From positions 1 through 64,000 of the forward strand of contig NZ_BOMS01000085.1 of NCBI RefSeq assembly GCF_016862315.1: a DNA stretch of 64,000 nucleotides, read 5' to 3'. The DNA is from Actinoplanes palleronii (GTDB lineage: Bacteria > Actinomycetota > Actinomycetes > Mycobacteriales > Micromonosporaceae). The translations under genes and the position numbers were made by a program. Shown piece after piece: positions 50,774 through 57,422 of the stretch. The notes under the pieces were generated by a model. That model was not told where the DNA came from. It ran no database searches and saw only the letters and a program-made list of their open reading frames with translations. Position 1 is the stretch's first letter, and the number at the start of each line of letters is the position of its first letter.

Positions 50774-51636
50774 TGGTGGAATACCGAGCCAGCCAGACCG
50801 CGGTCCTGGTCGCCCAGGGACGGGCCGCCGCACACGAGCGGCTCGCCCCGGGACGGTTCACCGATCCGACCGCGCGGGCGCTGCTGCGTGACGACGAGCT
50901 GACCACCGTCGATCTGGTCCGCCGGGACGAACCACCCGCGGACTGGACCGGCCGGGTCACGTACGAGATGGTGCGGCGCTGCGCCGAGATGATGGTGCCG
51001 CGGACCGTGGCGATCGACGCGGCGATGCGGGAACGGCGTACCCCTCAGGTTGTCATTCTCGGCGCGGGCCTGGACGGACGCGCCTGGCGGATGCCGGAGC
51101 TGGCCGCCGCGGACGTCTACGAGGTCGATCAGCCCGCCTCCCAGCAGGACAAACGGGAGCGCTCGGGCATCCTCGACGGCAAGCCGCCGGTGTTCGTGCC
51201 GGTGGACTTCGAACAGGACCGGCTCGGCGACGCGCTCGCCGCGGCCGGTCACCGCGCCGCCGCGACGACCTGGGTGTGGGAGGGCGTGGTGCCGTACCTG
51301 ACCCCGGAGCAGGTGGACACCACGGTGCGGGCGGTCGCCGCGCTCTCCCCGCCCGGCAGCCGCCTGATCATCAGCTATCAGGCCCGGTCGGGGCGGGCGC
51401 GGGTCGGCCGGCTGGTGGCGCACTCGATGGCGAGGGTCACCGGGCACGTCAGTCCGTGGGCCGCCGAGCCGTGGCGGTCGGCGTGGACCCCGCCGGGGCT
51501 GGCCGGGCTGCTGCAGCGGCACGGCTTCACCGTGCTCCGCGACGACAACCTGCTCGACCTGGCCGCCGGTCTGCTGCCGGCGACTCCGCGCACCGTCTCG
51601 TTCCGCTCCGGCCGGATCGCGGTCGCCGACATCTGA
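50773..51636 (+). CDS. SAM-dependent methyltransferase, TIGR00027/PPM-type
   Basis: A 287-residue methyltransferase of the leucine-carboxyl-methyltransferase-like family. QVVILGAGLDGRAWRMPELA is the SAM-binding motif, VYEVDQPASQQDKRER the second, and TTWVWEGVVPYLTPEQVDTT the catalytic part. Such proteins are abundant in actinobacteria and methylate unidentified carboxyl groups or metabolites. It stands alone, downstream of the DinB-type gene and facing an SRPBCC gene. A type-A hairpin lies after it. Confidence 0.87.
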   Translation: MVEYRASQTAVLVAQGRAAAHERLAPGRFTDPTARALLRDDELTTVDLVRRDEPPADWTGRVTYEMVRRCAEMMVPRTVAIDAAMRERRTPQVVILGAGLDGRAWRMPELAAADVYEVDQPASQQDKRERSGILDGKPPVFVPVDFEQDRLGDALAAAGHRAAATTWVWEGVVPYLTPEQVDTTVRAVAALSPPGSRLIISYQARSGRARVGRLVAHSMARVTGHVSPWAAEPWRSAWTPPGLAGLLQRHGFTVLRDDNLLDLAAGLLPATPRTVSFRSGRIAVADI

Positions 51637-51643
51637 CCGCGCG

Positions 51644-51700
51644 CCGGCTGGGCCTCAGGGGTGCTTCCGCGCCCTGGAGGCACCCCTGACAACCAGCCGG
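51644..51700. repeat. Type-A intergenic hairpin
   Basis: CCGGCTGGGCCTCAGGGGTG and CTTCC (51644-51668) pair with GGAGGCACCCCTGACAACC and AGCCGG (51676-51700), with a 7-base loop. It sits exactly between two convergent genes (stops at 51636 and 51708), where a bidirectional terminator would be expected. Confidence 0.85.
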
Positions 51701-51707
51701 AACCCCG

Positions 51708-52115
51708 TCAGACCGCGCTTTCCAGGACCGCTTTCATCTCCAGGATGCCGCGTTCCACGCGGGCCCGGACCGCGGGCGCGAGGGCGTGCGGGAGGACGTC
51801 GGTGGTCCAGACGACTTTGGTACGACCTTCTGCCGCCTCCACCACCTGGAACGCGGCCTGGTGATACGTCAGCGGCATGGCCTGGCCCTCGACCACCGAG
51901 TAGGCCATCCGCCGCAACTCGTGGTCGATCGCGATGATCAGCTCGCGGATCCGCGCGCCGTTCGGCATGGTCAGGATCCGGAAATCGCCGTCGAGCTCGG
52001 CGGCTGCCACCCGGCCGGGCAGCAGCCGCTCGTGCACCGCGCCCACGTCGGCGATCGCGTCCCAGACACGCGCGGCGGGCACCTCGACGAACGTCTCCAC
52101 AGCAACAGTGGCCAC
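51708..52115 (-). CDS. SRPBCC-family (polyketide cyclase-like) protein
   Basis: A 135-residue START/SRPBCC fold. MATVAVETFVEVPAARVWDA is the typical first strand and helix, and RRMAYSVVEGQAMPLTYHQA a middle part. It binds hydrophobic ligands in related proteins; no catalytic residue is assured. The GTG start at 52115 is two bases after the kinase stop (TAG-AC-GTG), so it closes the redox-signalling operon and may sense or bind a ligand for it (inference). Confidence 0.85.
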   Translation of the reverse strand: MATVAVETFVEVPAARVWDAIADVGAVHERLLPGRVAAAELDGDFRILTMPNGARIRELIIAIDHELRRMAYSVVEGQAMPLTYHQAAFQVVEAAEGRTKVVWTTDVLPHALAPAVRARVERGILEMKAVLESAV

Positions 52116-52117
52116 GT

Positions 52118-53584
52118 CTACGCCGAGGCCGGCTCGCTCAGCGGCAACCGGACCAGGAACCGGGTGTCCCCCGGCGCCGACTGCAGCGACAGGTCACCAC
52201 CGTGCCCGTTCACCACGATCCGGTACGAGATGTCCAGGCCCAGCCCGGTCCCCTCGCCCACCGGCTTGGTGGTGAAGAACGGCTCGAACACCCGCTTCTT
52301 GATCTCGTCCGGCACCCCCGGCCCGGAGTCGCCGACCGAGACCACGACCCGCTCGTCCTCCTGGTACGTCCGGATGGTCAGCGTGCCCGCCCCGGACATC
52401 GCCTGCACCGCGTTGTCGATCAGGTTCGTCCACACCTGGTTCAGCTCGGCCGGGTGGACCGGGATCTGCGGCAGCGTCCGGTCGTAGTCCTTGACCACCC
52501 GGATCCCGTCGCCGATCTTGTGCGCGAGCATCACCAGGGTGCTGTCCAGCCCGGTGTGCACGTCGATCCACTGGTGCGCCGAGCGGTCCACGTGCGAGTA
52601 CTGCTTCGCCGCGTTGACCAGCGACGACACCCGGCCGGTGGCGTCCTCGATGTCGCTCATCAGCTGCTCGGTCTCCAGCGCGTACCCGATCCAGTGGATC
52701 GCCTGGTCGAGCAGCTCCGGCGAGGCCAGCCGGTCCTGGATCTCGGTGAGGCAGTCGACGTCGATGCCACCCTGCGCGAAGACCGGCGCGACGTCCCAGC
52801 CACCGGTGACCCCGTGCTCGTCCATCCAGTCGCCGAGCTCGTCCTCCCGGTCGGCGGTCTGCATCGCGGTCAGCGACGGCGCCTTGGCGGCCCGCTCGAT
52901 GACCTCCTCCTGCAGCTCGAGCAGCTGCATCAGCCGGTCCGGGGCGACCTTGCCGGCGGCCAGCTTGCCGAGCTTCATCCGCATCCCGGCGACCCGCTGG
53001 CGCAGCGCGCCGGTGGCCCGGGAGGCGGCCGCGGCCGGGTTGTTCAGCTCGTGCATCAGCCCGGCGGAGAGCGCGCCGAGGGCCTGCAGCCGCTGCCGTT
53101 CCCCGATCACCGCCTGCGAGCTGCGCATCCCCAGGGTCAGGCCCTCGAGCAGGTGGATCGCCATCGGGAACCACTCGCGCATCAGCCACCCGAAGTCGGC
53201 CGCGGAGAGCGTGAAGAACTCGCTGTCGGAGAGCGCCCGCATCGACGCCATGTAGCGCTGCGGCACGCCGTCGTCGCGCAGGTAGGCGGTGGTCGCGCCC
53301 ATGTAGACGCCGCGCTGCTCGGTGCGGACCGTCTGGACGTCGTCCTGACCGACCCGGCGGGTCAGCGCGACGGTGCCGGTGAGCAGCACGAAGAACTGCT
53401 CGGCCGGGTCGCCCTCGCGCAGCACCAGGCCGCCGCCGGCCACCCGCTGGGTGCAGCCGTGCTCGGCGATCCAGGTCAGCTGCTCGTCGGTGAGTTTCTC
53501 GAAGAGGAACAGCGACCGCAGGTCCTCGGCGGTGAGCCGGCCGGGCTCACAGGGTTCCAGGTGGATCTCTTCGGGTTCGGTCAT
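52118..53584 (-). CDS. cNMP-binding-domain histidine kinase
   Basis: A 488-residue soluble kinase. Residues about 20-150 are a cyclic-nucleotide-binding-type fold (FLFEKLTDEQLTWIAEHG, GDPAEQFFVLLTGTVALTRR). About 165-250 is the dimerisation/phospho-acceptor region with His178 in LSAGLMHELNNP. About 370-488 is HATPase (NQVWTNLIDNAVQAM and GEGTGLGLDISYRIV). There are no transmembrane segments. Its partner is likely the response regulator fused to a reductase, two genes upstream. ATG 53584 overlaps the stop of the 30-residue gene before it. Confidence 0.87.
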   Translation of the reverse strand: MTEPEEIHLEPCEPGRLTAEDLRSLFLFEKLTDEQLTWIAEHGCTQRVAGGGLVLREGDPAEQFFVLLTGTVALTRRVGQDDVQTVRTEQRGVYMGATTAYLRDDGVPQRYMASMRALSDSEFFTLSAADFGWLMREWFPMAIHLLEGLTLGMRSSQAVIGERQRLQALGALSAGLMHELNNPAAAASRATGALRQRVAGMRMKLGKLAAGKVAPDRLMQLLELQEEVIERAAKAPSLTAMQTADREDELGDWMDEHGVTGGWDVAPVFAQGGIDVDCLTEIQDRLASPELLDQAIHWIGYALETEQLMSDIEDATGRVSSLVNAAKQYSHVDRSAHQWIDVHTGLDSTLVMLAHKIGDGIRVVKDYDRTLPQIPVHPAELNQVWTNLIDNAVQAMSGAGTLTIRTYQEDERVVVSVGDSGPGVPDEIKKRVFEPFFTTKPVGEGTGLGLDISYRIVVNGHGGDLSLQSAPGDTRFLVRLPLSEPASA

Positions 53585-53673
53585 GGCTGGGCCAGCCTTG
53601 TCATGCCCTCGTGGCCCTCGCCTGCGAGGTCGTTGTTCGGCACCAGGAAGTGCCGCTCGGTGCAGTCGGTCAT
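53581..53673 (-). CDS. 30-residue peptide gene inside the redox-signalling operon
   Basis: MTDCTERHFLVPNNDLAGEG HEGMTRLAQP: soluble, with one Cys and two His that could bind metal. It fits the gap exactly: its ATG comes two bases after the reductase TAG, and its TGA overlaps the kinase start as ATGA. It could be a coupling peptide or a remnant of a once larger protein. No family match is recognised. Confidence 0.5.
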   Translation of the reverse strand: MTDCTERHFLVPNNDLAGEGHEGMTRLAQP

Positions 53674-53675
53674 GA

Positions 53676-55334
53676 CTATTGCGCCTCCAGGTAACGATGC
53701 ACCAGCGCGACGGCCATCGCGCCCTCACCGACCGCCGAGGCCACCCGTTTGATCGAGTTGGCCCGGACGTCGCCGGCGGCGAAGATGCCGGGAACACTGC
53801 TCTCCAGATAGAACGGATCGCGGTCGCGATCCCATCCCCGCGGACGGTCCCCGTTCGCAAGAAGATCCGATCCGGTACGGATGAAGCCCTTTCCGTCCCG
53901 TGCCACCGCGTCACCCAGCCAGTCGGTGCGCGGTTCGGCCCCGATGAAGACGAACAGGTAGCCGCACTCGACGGTGGCCTTCGTGCCGTCCTTGCTGTCG
54001 CAGATGGTGATCGCCTGCAGGTGCCCGTCGCCGAGCGCCCCGATCACCTCGCAGCGGGTACGCACCTCGATGTTCTCCACCCGGGCCAGCTGCTGGATCA
54101 GGTAGTACGACATCGACGACTCCAGCGAGTCGCCGCGGACCAGCAGGGTGACCCGGCGCGCGTACTTCGCGAAGAAGAGCGCGGCCTGCCCGGCCGAGTT
54201 CGCGCCGCCGACGATGTACACGTCGGTGCCGGAACACGCCGGCCCCTCGGTGGCGGCCGAGCCGTAGAACACCCCGGAACCGGTCAGGCCGGCGACCCCG
54301 TCGGCCAGCAACGGGCGGTAGGAGACCCCGGTGGCCAGCAGGATCGCGTGCGCGGAGACCTCGCCGCCGTCGGCGAACGTCAGCGTACGAGCGGACCCGT
54401 CGGCCCGGAGCCCGACCACCTCGCGGGTGTTGAGCGTCTCGGCGGCGAACTTGTCGGCCTGCCGCCGGGCCCGGTCGGTCAGCTGGGCCCCGGAGATCCC
54501 GTCCGGGAAGCCCAGGTAGTTCTCGATCCGCGAGCTCTGCCCGGCCTGCCCGCCGACCGCCTGCCGCTCGATCAGCAACGTCTTGAGGCCCTCGGAGCCG
54601 CCGTAGACGGCCGCGCCCAGCCCGGCCGGGCCACCGCCCACGATGATCAGGTCGTAGAAGTCCCGGCCCGGGTTGGTGGAGAGCCCGGCCGCCTCGGCGA
54701 CCTCCTGCACGGTCGGCTGGGACAGCGCCCGCCCGTCCGCGGTCACCACCAGCGGGACCGACTCCGGACCGGCCCCGGCCGCCTCCAGCAGCCGGCGGCC
54801 CTCCGGCTCGTCCGCGCCGAAATACCGGTACGGCACCAGGTTGCGGGCGAGGAAGTCGCGGATCTGGAACGACGGCTCGCTCCACCGGTGCCCGACCACC
54901 CGGATGTCCAGTTGCTCCTGGTCACCGGTCGCCTGCCACGCGTCCAGCAGCGCGTCCAGCACCGGGTAGAGCTTCTCCTCCGGCGGGTCCCACGGCTTGA
55001 GCAGGTAGTGGTCGACGTCGACCACGTTGATCGCCTGGATCGCGGCGTCGGTGTCGGCATACGCGGTCAGCAGCGCCCGCCGCGCGTGCGGGAACAGGTC
55101 CATCGCCTGCTCCAGGAAGTCGATGCCGTTCATCTGCGGCATCCGGTAGTCGGCGAGCATGACGGCGACCCGTCCGCCACGCAATTTCAATTCCTTCAGT
55201 ACGTCGAGCGCGTCGCCGGCCGAACTCGCCCGGATGATCCGGTACTTGTCGCCGTAACGGCGGCGCAGGTCACGCGCGATGGCGCGGGAGACCGAGGGGT
55301 CGTCGTCGACGGTGAGGATCGCGGGTTGGCCCAT
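53676..55334 (-). CDS. Response regulator fused to thioredoxin-reductase-like flavoprotein
   Basis: A 552-residue fusion. Residues 1-125 are a receiver domain with acidic VDDDPS, the phospho-acceptor Asp62 (VMLADYRMPQMNG) and Lys113 (LLKPW). About 140-215 is a thioredoxin-like region. From 227 to 552 is an FAD/NAD(P)H reductase: IIVGGGPAGLGAAVYGG (FAD), YIVGGANSAGQAALFF (NADPH) and FAAGDVRANSIKRVA. The usual redox CxxC just before the NADPH motif is missing (YGSAATEGPAC at 357-367), so disulfide reduction by the standard route is unlikely. Phosphorylation may control flavin chemistry. ATG 55334 follows AGAGG. Confidence 0.88.
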   Translation of the reverse strand: MGQPAILTVDDDPSVSRAIARDLRRRYGDKYRIIRASSAGDALDVLKELKLRGGRVAVMLADYRMPQMNGIDFLEQAMDLFPHARRALLTAYADTDAAIQAINVVDVDHYLLKPWDPPEEKLYPVLDALLDAWQATGDQEQLDIRVVGHRWSEPSFQIRDFLARNLVPYRYFGADEPEGRRLLEAAGAGPESVPLVVTADGRALSQPTVQEVAEAAGLSTNPGRDFYDLIIVGGGPAGLGAAVYGGSEGLKTLLIERQAVGGQAGQSSRIENYLGFPDGISGAQLTDRARRQADKFAAETLNTREVVGLRADGSARTLTFADGGEVSAHAILLATGVSYRPLLADGVAGLTGSGVFYGSAATEGPACSGTDVYIVGGANSAGQAALFFAKYARRVTLLVRGDSLESSMSYYLIQQLARVENIEVRTRCEVIGALGDGHLQAITICDSKDGTKATVECGYLFVFIGAEPRTDWLGDAVARDGKGFIRTGSDLLANGDRPRGWDRDRDPFYLESSVPGIFAAGDVRANSIKRVASAVGEGAMAVALVHRYLEAQ

Positions 55335-55346
55335 GGGTCGTTACCT

Positions 55347-56495
55347 CTACTCCACATCGATTTCTTCGGGGTGCCGTTCCAGATAACCGGCGACGAACGG
55401 GCAGGTGGCGGTGACCGGCGTGGACCGGGAACGGGCGTCGGCGAGTGCCGCGGCGGCCAGCCGGCCGGCCAGCCCACGCCCGGAGAAGGCCTGGTCGACC
55501 TCGGTGTGCAGCAGCTCGACCCGGTCGCCGTGGCGGCGGTAGTGCAGCACGCCGGCGACCTCACCGCCGAGCAGGATCTCGTACCGGTCCCGCTCGAAGC
55601 TGTCCACCACGATCGCGTCCTCGGCGTTCCAGTCGCCGGCCTGGGCGCTGCCCTCGACCCGTAGCTTGCGCCGGGCCCGCTCGTAGAACGAGGTGGTGCC
55701 GAACCGGATCACCTGGGCGGCGGCCGGGAGCGGCTCGATCTCGATGGCCGCGCCCGGTTCGGCGTACCCCTCGATGATCCCGTCCACCTCGATCGCCAGC
55801 CGGCCACTGGTCGACAGCACGTCCAGGCAGAGGTGTTCGGAGGTGTCCAGCACCAGGGACCGGTTGAACGACGAGTGCGCGGCGGCCGCGCTGACGATCA
55901 GGCCCTCCACGTTCGGCGAGACGATCGGGCCACCGGCCGAGAAGCTGTACGCCGTCGAGCCGGTCGGCGTGGAGACCAGCACGGCGTCGGCCGCGTAGTT
56001 GACGAACCGGCGCCCCTCGACCCGGATCCCGACCGCGGCCAGCCCGTGGCCCGGCACCCGGACCAGGGCGATGTCGTTGAACGCGGTCACCGACCGGCCG
56101 TCCGGCAGGGTGGTGCGCACCGCGGTGCGGGTCTCGACCGTGTACCGGTGGTCGTCGATCGCGGAGAGCGCGTCCTTCAGCTCCGGCAGGTCGACCTCGG
56201 CGAGGAAGCCGAGCCGGCCCACGTTCACCCCGAGCACCGGGGTCTTGCGGCCCTCGACCAGGCGCATCGTGCGCAGCATGGTGCCGTCGCCGCCGAGGCT
56301 CACCAGCAGACCGGCGCGGTCGACCATCTCCTCCACGGAGACCGCCTCGGCGCTGCAGTCGATGCGGTCGATCTCGTCGGGCAGGCCCAGCACGGTCACG
56401 CCGCGGGACGCCGCCCAGCTCACGATGGTGTCGACCGCCGAGCCGCAGTCGCGGCGCGGATGCAGCACCAGACCGACCACTTTGATCATGCCCAT
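55347..56495 (-). CDS. nadK: NAD kinase fused to a GNAT-type acetyltransferase domain
   Basis: A 382-residue fusion. Residues about 1-290 are NAD kinase: LVSLGGDGTMLRTMRLV (GGDG motif), GVNVGRLGFLAEVD, and YAADAVLVSTPTGSTAYSFS for the NAD site. About 300-382 is a small GNAT of the COG2388 type (YRRHGDRVELLHTEVDQAFS, GRGLAGRLAAAALADA, CPFVAGYLERHPE). ATG 56495 has GAGAGGGG 7 bases upstream. It precedes the reductase gene by 12 bases, so NADPH supply and NADPH-linked reductase would be made together. The acetyl acceptor is unknown. Confidence 0.87.
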   Translation of the reverse strand: MGMIKVVGLVLHPRRDCGSAVDTIVSWAASRGVTVLGLPDEIDRIDCSAEAVSVEEMVDRAGLLVSLGGDGTMLRTMRLVEGRKTPVLGVNVGRLGFLAEVDLPELKDALSAIDDHRYTVETRTAVRTTLPDGRSVTAFNDIALVRVPGHGLAAVGIRVEGRRFVNYAADAVLVSTPTGSTAYSFSAGGPIVSPNVEGLIVSAAAAHSSFNRSLVLDTSEHLCLDVLSTSGRLAIEVDGIIEGYAEPGAAIEIEPLPAAAQVIRFGTTSFYERARRKLRVEGSAQAGDWNAEDAIVVDSFERDRYEILLGGEVAGVLHYRRHGDRVELLHTEVDQAFSGRGLAGRLAAAALADARSRSTPVTATCPFVAGYLERHPEEIDVE

Positions 56496-56618
56496 CAGTG
56501 TGCCCCTCTCCCGGTTCCCCGTCAGCCTCGCACGCCAGGCCGGAGATCGGCGACCATCCGGACCGTGGCGGAAACCACGGGGCGGCATCCGTCGTACGCA
56601 TGATGTTCAATGCCGTTC

Positions 56619-57422
56619 ATGACGGAATGGCGGGCGGTGGTCACCGATCTGGACGGCACGGTGGTCGGACGGAACGATCGCATCACGCCGGCCACCCTGA
56701 ACGCGGCCGCTCAGCTGCGGTACCGCGGGATCCCGCTGCTGGCCGCCACCGCCCGGACCCGCAACGGTGTGTTGCGGCTCGGCGCGTTCGCCGGGCACCT
56801 CGCGGTCGCGGTCTGCCACGGCGGGGCGCTGGGCTGGGCCCCGGAGAGCGGGCAGACCCTGTGGCAGCGCACCCTGCCCGCGGAAACCCTGCGTGACCTG
56901 GTCACCTTCGTCCGGGATCGGCACGGTGCCGGGCTGTCCGCGTTCGGTGTCACGTCCTGGGACCTCACCCCGGAGTACCTGGCGCTGCGGGGCACCCCGC
57001 CGGCCGAGCCGTGGCGGCCGGTCGCGCTCGCCGGGATCGCCGACCAGCCCGCGTACGGCGCGGCGATCCGGCACGCCTCGCTCAGCTCGGACGAGCTGAT
57101 CGCCGAGCTGGCCCAGGCCGGTTTCGCCGCGCGGGCCACCCTGACCTACGCGGCGCCGCACCTGGTCGAGATCGGTCCGCTCGGCGTGGACAAGGCGGCC
57201 GGGGTGGCGCGCGCCCTGGACTGGCTGGGTGTCTCGCCGGAGCACACCGTGGCTTTCGGCGACATGCCGAACGACCTGAGCATGTTCGCGCTGGTGGGGC
57301 ACTCGGTCGCGGTGGGCGCGGCGCATCCGGCGGTGCTGGCCGCCGCGACCGCCCACACGGCCGGCGTCACCGACGACGGCTTCGCCCAGCACCTGGCCAC
57401 CCTGGGCCTGATCCACACCTAG
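56619..57422 (+). CDS. HAD-superfamily (Cof-type) phosphatase
   Basis: A 267-residue hydrolase. WRAVVTDLDGTVVGRND gives the DxDGT nucleophile motif, ATARTR-like LLAATARTRNGV is motif II, DKAAGVARAL the Lys motif, and FGDMPNDLSMFALVG motif IV. The cap is C2 type. It likely dephosphorylates a sugar phosphate or cofactor. ATG 56619 and the in-frame ATG 56610 are both possible. It is divergent from the NAD kinase fusion gene. Three hairpin elements follow it. Confidence 0.9.
   Translation: MTEWRAVVTDLDGTVVGRNDRITPATLNAAAQLRYRGIPLLAATARTRNGVLRLGAFAGHLAVAVCHGGALGWAPESGQTLWQRTLPAETLRDLVTFVRDRHGAGLSAFGVTSWDLTPEYLALRGTPPAEPWRPVALAGIADQPAYGAAIRHASLSSDELIAELAQAGFAARATLTYAAPHLVEIGPLGVDKAAGVARALDWLGVSPEHTVAFGDMPNDLSMFALVGHSVAVGAAHPAVLAAATAHTAGVTDDGFAQHLATLGLIHT

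Follow-up and report, generated by a model that had tools for sequence, protein, structure and literature searches.

The window, as the whole 64,000-nucleotide (nt) stretch of Actinoplanes palleronii DNA analysed here is called (contig NZ_BOMS01000085.1, positions 1 to 64,000), carries between positions 51,708 and 56,489 a run of five open reading frames (ORFs). Two of these encode a histidine kinase and a receiver domain joined to a thioredoxin reductase (TrxR)-like flavoprotein, referred to below as the receiver-reductase, and between them lies a 30-codon frame that is part of a short dispersed repeat. The features of the locus are as follows.

55347..56489, minus strand: NAD kinase-GNAT fusion, the second NAD kinase of the genome (Pfam NAD_kinase, NAD_kinase_C and Acetyltransf_CG)
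53676..55334, minus strand: receiver, glutaredoxin-like fold and TrxR-like flavoprotein without CxxC (Pfam Response_reg 6-118 and Pyr_redox_2 227-538; structure model)
53582..53677, minus strand: copy of a dispersed hairpin repeat resembling the mycobacterial MIRU family (match to repeat model R1, 102.3 bits; alignment and covariation)
53581..53673, minus strand: 30-codon ORF within the repeat, its TGA overlapping the kinase ATG by 4 nt
52118..53584, minus strand: soluble histidine kinase with a cNMP-binding-like domain, H178 (HELNNP) and HATPase_c (Pfam cNMP_binding and HATPase_c; conservation)
51708..52115, minus strand: SRPBCC (Polyketide_cyc2) protein, not a conserved operon member (Pfam)

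The first-pass annotation, made from the DNA letters alone, described the five frames as a redox-signalling operon with gaps of 12 nt or fewer or overlaps, and this arrangement is confirmed. All frames lie on the minus strand. The gaps measure 12 nt between the NAD kinase-GNAT and receiver-reductase genes, 2 nt between the receiver-reductase gene and the small ORF, and 2 nt between the kinase and SRPBCC genes, the small ORF and the kinase gene sharing the one 4-nt ATGA overlap. The kinase start codon agrees with that of orthologues. A Pfam search with the 30-codon ORF peptide gave no match, and an Rfam scan of positions 51000-57200 yielded no hit better than expected by chance (best E 0.27, well short of the gathering threshold).

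The further claim of a single five-gene circuit does not survive comparison with other genomes. Among relatives of the receiver-reductase (the best 80 of 567 confirmed, in named genomes, all with actinobacterial titles; counts out of 80 below refer to this set), 12 have an NAD kinase gene next to the pair and none has an adjoining SRPBCC gene. Of the five genes, two form the conserved core pair, one is a neighbour within the lineage, one is a neighbour specific to the strain and the last is the reading frame of a repeat; the 30-residue peptide, earlier counted as a fifth component, is best interpreted as that repeat's coupling frame. The joint reading favoured here, at a probability of roughly three in four (∼0.77), is that of a conserved two-component pair with a mobile MIRU-like repeat inserted directly before the kinase start.

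The kinase and receiver-reductase pair

A kinase relative is present in all 80 loci and lies at most 300 nt downstream of the receiver-reductase gene in 78 of them, the exceptions being distances of 3.9 kb (L032) and 1.1 kb (L038). Such tight spacing exceeds chance, and the kinase is also present in all 30 same-genus loci listed. Alignment of the window receiver-reductase with proteins from 46 of the 80 loci (n=47) shows the receiver residues D11, D12, D62, T90 and K113 to be invariant, and the same holds for H178 and N387 of the kinase in an alignment of the window and 78 of the 80 loci (n=79). Because of this co-occurrence, spacing and invariance of phosphotransfer residues, the two proteins are regarded as partners, which probably form a conserved two-component pair and a widespread signalling module. 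The earlier proposal that the likely target of the kinase is a flavoprotein-fused receiver, not one of the DNA-binding type, agrees with the presence of both genes in every locus. Its description of the kinase as soluble holds as well, as no membrane segment was found in the protein (highest 19-residue Kyte-Doolittle mean, 0.85) and Pfam assigns it cNMP_binding and HATPase_c.

The cNMP domain of the kinase has a signature of its own, marked by conserved G92, Y94, G96 and Y111. A long stretch with family-conserved residues (190-310) connects the H-box helix to the ATPase part and is presumably longer than the usual dimerisation domain. In the proposed pathway, the cNMP-type domain of the soluble kinase would sense a cytoplasmic cue, and the kinase would then phosphorylate D62 of the receiver, which in its phosphorylated state would gate the TrxR-fold flavoprotein. 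Response regulators that join a receiver (REC) domain to thioredoxin reductase are already in print, described in passages of PMC5847659 as a 'Mycobacterium-like combination', and show the same domain fusion as the window protein. Relative to those passages, the window family is described here with a glutaredoxin-like middle domain, no CxxC and an adjacent kinase gene.

The flavoprotein

A TrxR fold with an FAD domain was found at residues 225-550 of the receiver-reductase. The AlphaFold2 model of the protein (mean pLDDT 77.9, pTM 0.54) contains at residues 144-216 a beta-alpha-beta-alpha-beta-beta-alpha domain, which follows glutaredoxin-fold order. Foldseek ranks AhpF first, with poor superposition over the whole chain (TM 0.45, rmsd 23.1); single TrxR chains superpose better, on the C-terminal part. 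AhpF carries a thioredoxin-fold module in front. The TrxR fold is common to the window protein and AhpF/thioredoxin reductase (PDB 4xvg, 4zn0); unlike these, the window flavoprotein has no redox CxxC, retains a single invariant cysteine (C367, 47 aligned) and has gained a receiver domain.

A redox-active CxxC at positions 350-372 is present in none of the 47 aligned rows, and neither is the HRR of the NADPH-phosphate site (0/47). Of the residues of HRRxxxR, which we take to be the NADPH-phosphate motif with its three arginines, only R400 is kept. The first-pass annotation had assigned the protein as an NADPH-using reductase. Both motifs do occur in the alignment in the genome's ordinary TrxR (L003), as CATC and HRRDSFR. 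With no CxxC and two of three NADPH-phosphate arginines gone, an NADPH-using disulfide reductase is therefore not supported, and these residues make NADPH a doubtful donor for the flavoprotein.

The genome also encodes a paralogue of the receiver-reductase (L002:1486-3135, minus strand) in which a cNMP-binding domain replaces the receiver, as if the same output had been placed under direct control, in the manner of a one-component version of the pair. This domain swap suggests that cNMP-type sensing and the flavoprotein belong together.

A dispersed repeat with a covarying hairpin

The repeat before the kinase gene measures ∼89 nt and is dispersed, with 17 matches to model R1 in the genome, one of them in the window. 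The extra ∼92 bases of the window have DNA matches in 37 of the 40 same-genus genomes listed, its own included. In a family sample of 200 genomes, R1 matches were listed for 55, comprising 33 of the 36 same-genus genomes listed, 17 genomes of genus g4 and 5 others. A class sample searched with strict filters gave matches in 4 of 394 genomes, namely the own genome, one of g4, one of another family (G540) and one weak match (G546); in this sample, family f2 of the same order gave no match. These multi-genome scans scored 10-22 candidates per genome, which makes their copy numbers lower bounds. No such repeat was reported for Actinoplanes in the titles and abstracts searched, most subscription journals lying outside the search, and the passages of the Actinoplanes sp. 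SE50/110 genome paper (PMC3364876) mention just unspecified short repetitive contigs.

Two groups of outlying copies were observed. The match in G540 (L248) is a lone full-length copy of 92 bits with a frame ending in ATGA; lying far outside the genus, it reflects either horizontal transfer or contamination. In genome G084 of genus g4, three loci (L249, L252 and L253) contain ∼57-base tandem units that are mutually in frame (MSERTERSEGREGMP...). The g4 copies examined in this genome keep the hairpin stem and miss most of the loop, and several are read in frame.

The hairpin itself was predicted by RNAalifold from a MAFFT alignment of 26 of 27 copies, one with N being excluded, and comprises 15 pairs with a covarying closing stem. 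One pair of this stem is GC in 16 copies, UA in 8, and CG and GU in one each; another is CG in 16, GC in 5 and UA in 4, with one unpaired. Standard pairs form in 99.5% of cells over the 15 base pairs, and slid partners pair in 13-43%. Shuffling (n=500) reached four of five measures in no case and the fifth, the number of pair types, in 77. Among 109 distinct copies in a model-fitted alignment, which leans towards the structure, 98.7% of cells are paired and two-sided changes number 72 vs 9.8 in shuffles. The alignments thus predict a covarying hairpin for the repeat, formed either in RNA or in single-stranded DNA.

Stop-start geometry of the repeat

Geometry was assessed in 149 R1 matches, reduced to 147 distinct copies by removal of identical ones and all drawn from genomes high in score-ordered lists. 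A TGA-ended frame of 15-40 codons is present in 126 of the 147, with exactly 30 codons in 102 of these. The TGA is preceded by A or G (RTGA) in 120 of the 126, vs 3,443 of 6,078 TGAs outside repeats (57%). The coding frame of the next gene starts at the NTG of the repeat in 103 of 115 testable last-of-array copies; at RTGA sites outside repeats, a coding frame starts in 772 of 1,987. Of 127 copies, 109 have a Shine-Dalgarno-like 4-mer ahead of the downstream start, vs 233 of 1,897 RTGA sites.

The preference for stop-start junctions is also seen on the upstream side, where the ORF of the previous gene ends in the NTGA of 85 of 128 repeats vs 43 of 1,987 control sites under the same criterion. 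An upstream ORF of at least 100 codons has its TGA overlapping the start of the small frame by 4 bases in 85 of 130 first-of-array copies, and 63 of 116 single copies have overlaps on both sides. At seven loci (L141, L164, L165, L190, L205, L228 and L243), the frame of the repeat continues for hundreds of codons, and these long frames are apparently N-terminal extensions fused in frame to downstream genes.

The genes downstream of 15 own-genome copies are functionally unrelated and include those for a response regulator, ABC transporters, galactokinase, ArgJ, Ham1, DHFR and MeaB; one (L137) has no Pfam match. A shared function was considered and rejected, none being evident among the 15. This diversity bears on the proposal that the repeat is a fixed cis-regulatory RNA, acting on the genes that follow it as an attenuator or riboswitch-like leader. 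The strongly covarying hairpin and the Shine-Dalgarno-like tail preceding a start codon are what such an RNA would have, yet the downstream genes in this genome differ in kind and presence of the repeat varies among close relatives, so that a dedicated regulator is distinctly improbable.

Selection on the 30-residue peptide

Across 79 ungapped copies, heterozygosity at codon positions 1, 2 and 3 is 0.230, 0.264 and 0.257, without a third-position excess. In the frame table, from which 3 copies lacking the anchor were left out, the 3' half is read in another frame in 24 of 124 anchored copies, most of which still have a total length of 89. The loop is one base longer in 18 last-of-array copies; 15 of these still have a short TGA frame, and 13 pass the downstream-frame test. 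The absent third-position excess and the frame shifts therefore indicate conservation of frame, ribosome site and hairpin but not of the peptide; judged from these patterns, the small frame would serve coupling, and the peptide itself is probably not selected.

The residues common to many copies (MTDCTERH...AGEGQEGM), and the frame being open in most, would fit a small protein with a function in the signalling operon. Both the codon pattern and the 24 copies with a shifted 3' half speak against it, the variable base of codon 2 covaries with its hairpin partner, and short repeat variants lack the middle altogether. In addition, 28 of the 29 other same-genus loci listed are without the full 30-codon ORF, the remaining one having a short variant, and the genes downstream of the copies have unrelated functions. 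A role for the peptide itself is highly improbable.

Occupied and empty sites

In the closest relatives, the junction that holds the repeat in the window is empty and the receiver-reductase stop abuts the kinase ATG. Among the 30 same-genus loci listed, the kinase junction has an R1 match in 2, the window and a short variant (L261); 12 named loci have no R1 match at this junction. The variant in L261 (3155-3220, genome G028) is 66 bases long, stands at the receiver-reductase/kinase junction and ends in TAATG, and is possibly an independent insertion at the same site. The junction before argJ is occupied in 1 of 30 loci listed, and the 29 empty loci retain an NTGA overlap of argJ with the upstream gene, which we take to be argC. 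Before the Ham1-family gene, presumably rdgB, R1 matches occur in 4 of 30 loci listed, two full and two divergent. Inspection by eye revealed other inserts without an R1 match at this last junction (L343, L346, L357 and L334), those in L343 and L346 beginning with ATGAGCGAG; they are perhaps a second coupling-repeat family and may mark an insertion hotspot. As most orthologous junctions are empty and some are occupied, the repeat shows the distribution associated with MIRU-type mobility, and it may move at the present day.

Of 105 single coupled copies, 28 combine a left start ATG with a right GTG, making up 28 of the 32 in which the right start is GTG. The left ATG kept beside a right GTG indicates that the left ATGA belongs to the repeat; a target-site duplication of NTGA was rejected on this count. 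Position -2 is complementary to the base that follows CATG in 119 of 127 copies, and position -3 to the next base in 104 of 127. When empty sites are compared, the flank fits such pairing at argJ and does not at rdgB or in the window. A base-pairing guide to the target is a possibility.

A hairpin element without evident target duplication, inserted beside the fixed tetranucleotide NTGA, has features similar to those of IS200/IS605- and REP-type elements, and a single-strand transposase of that type could move the repeat in the manner of PATE elements. The distribution of the transposase family makes this unlikely. Y1_Tnp occurs in 11 of the 40 same-genus genomes listed, own included, and is absent from G004, G005, G013 and G014, each of which has 18-26 DNA matches listed. 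No R1 copy was detected near Y1_Tnp in 20 loci fetched (best E 0.69), nor were the common ends with a Y1 element that mark an IS200/IS605-derived (PATE) repeat. Y1_Tnp was rejected as mobiliser because it has no linked copies and is missing from several copy-rich genomes.

Relation to known repeats and proposed mechanism

Mycobacterial MIRUs, according to passages of a 2025 review (PMC12548453), appear mobile and insert at start codons, with an ORF coupled to the target at -4 spacing. The Actinoplanes repeat likewise is short and dispersed (17 own copies; 33 of 36 listed same-genus genomes), sits at start codons and has an internal ORF with a 4-nt target overlap. A title in the reference list of PMC12548453 places the first description of MIRU in a two-component operon, which is also its setting in the window. 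Unlike MIRU as described in those passages, the Actinoplanes repeat has a covarying hairpin and short or in-frame subfamilies. The BRE repeat of Betaproteobacteria (PMC3110155) is similar in being ∼90 bp, dispersed and present in up to tens of copies, and differs in that the passages of that source do not include start-codon coupling. The Actinoplanes repeat would work like MIRU; it is called MIRU-like from its anatomy, the comparison being one of descriptions and not of sequences.

In the proposed mechanism, the repeat would carry its own ATGA, Shine-Dalgarno-like stretch and ∼30-codon frame into the reductase/kinase junction. A ribosome ending the upstream gene would re-initiate at the ATG(A) of the repeat, at the foot of the hairpin, read ∼30 codons through the hairpin and stop at the TGA overlapping the next start, where it would re-initiate on the downstream gene with the aid of the Shine-Dalgarno-like tail. 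The repeat would thus act as a mobile translational-coupling cassette. Given re-initiation across the repeat, operon expression should survive an insertion, which would be near neutral, as its anatomy and the MIRU precedent suggest.

Several observations weigh against this reading of the locus. In the window, the upstream gene stops at a TAG two bases before the repeat, and the overlap is downstream only. Among first-of-array copies, 23 of 130 are without an upstream ORF under the criteria applied and in 22 of 130 the ORF stops elsewhere. The short TGA frame is missing in 15 of 130 last-of-array copies, some fused in frame and some apparently outside operons; 12 of 115 copies fail the downstream-frame test, and a matching downstream frame alone does not establish a start codon. 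A single subfamily, and not compensation arising repeatedly, may account for the copies with a shifted middle frame, and the score-ordered sampling over-represents canonical copies. The 99.5% pairing is favoured by prediction of the hairpin from the very alignment used for counting, and single-copy folding energies are modestly better than those of shuffles (z -0.55 to -2.04, five copies). A transposase linked to the repeat was not found at the Y1_Tnp loci (n=20). Finally, the kinase sensor is without the canonical cNMP-pocket residues; the usual pocket, which we take to be marked by Glu/Arg, was not found in its cNMP domain.

A more specific scheme can be drawn, though as a whole it is tentative and on balance doubtful. 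The repeat would belong to a mobile family specialised for the NTGA stop-start junctions of actinobacterial operons. Insertion would leave no target duplication and would probably proceed through a single-strand hairpin, its arm after CATG pairing with the bases that immediately precede the inserted ATGA. With an ATGA, Shine-Dalgarno stretch and frame of its own, the repeat would rebuild both translational couplings, and the ∼89, 66 and 57 nt classes together with the mycobacterial MIRU would be independent solutions to one common need.

If the MIRU-like reading is true, start-codon-targeting, translation-coupling repeats extend beyond mycobacteria, and a copy-rich genus of soil bacteria becomes available for testing repeat mobility, target choice and the effect on operon translation. 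It also carries a warning, as small ORFs that appear in operons of one lineage alone may represent insertion elements and not peptides.

Neighbouring genes

The NAD kinase-GNAT gene is a genus-level neighbour of the pair, located upstream on the same strand in 27 of the 29 other same-genus loci listed. In the wider set, an NAD kinase adjoins the pair upstream in 10 loci and downstream in 2; the downstream cases are both from Microbispora (L031 and L045), and the match covers the NAD kinase part only. The first-pass annotation joined this gene to the pair in one circuit, with the NAD kinase feeding NADPH to a phospho-regulated reductase. Its upstream position in the genus and downstream position in Microbispora, two arrangements of the same neighbours, favour such a link; the small share of loci with this neighbour (12 of 80) and a flavoprotein without CxxC and without two of the three NADPH-phosphate arginines of the presumed motif render it improbable. 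Only L019 among the 80 loci has an SRPBCC gene, located ∼2.9 kb past the kinase gene. The other NAD kinase gene of the genome (L008) adjoins an S4/FtsJ-like gene.

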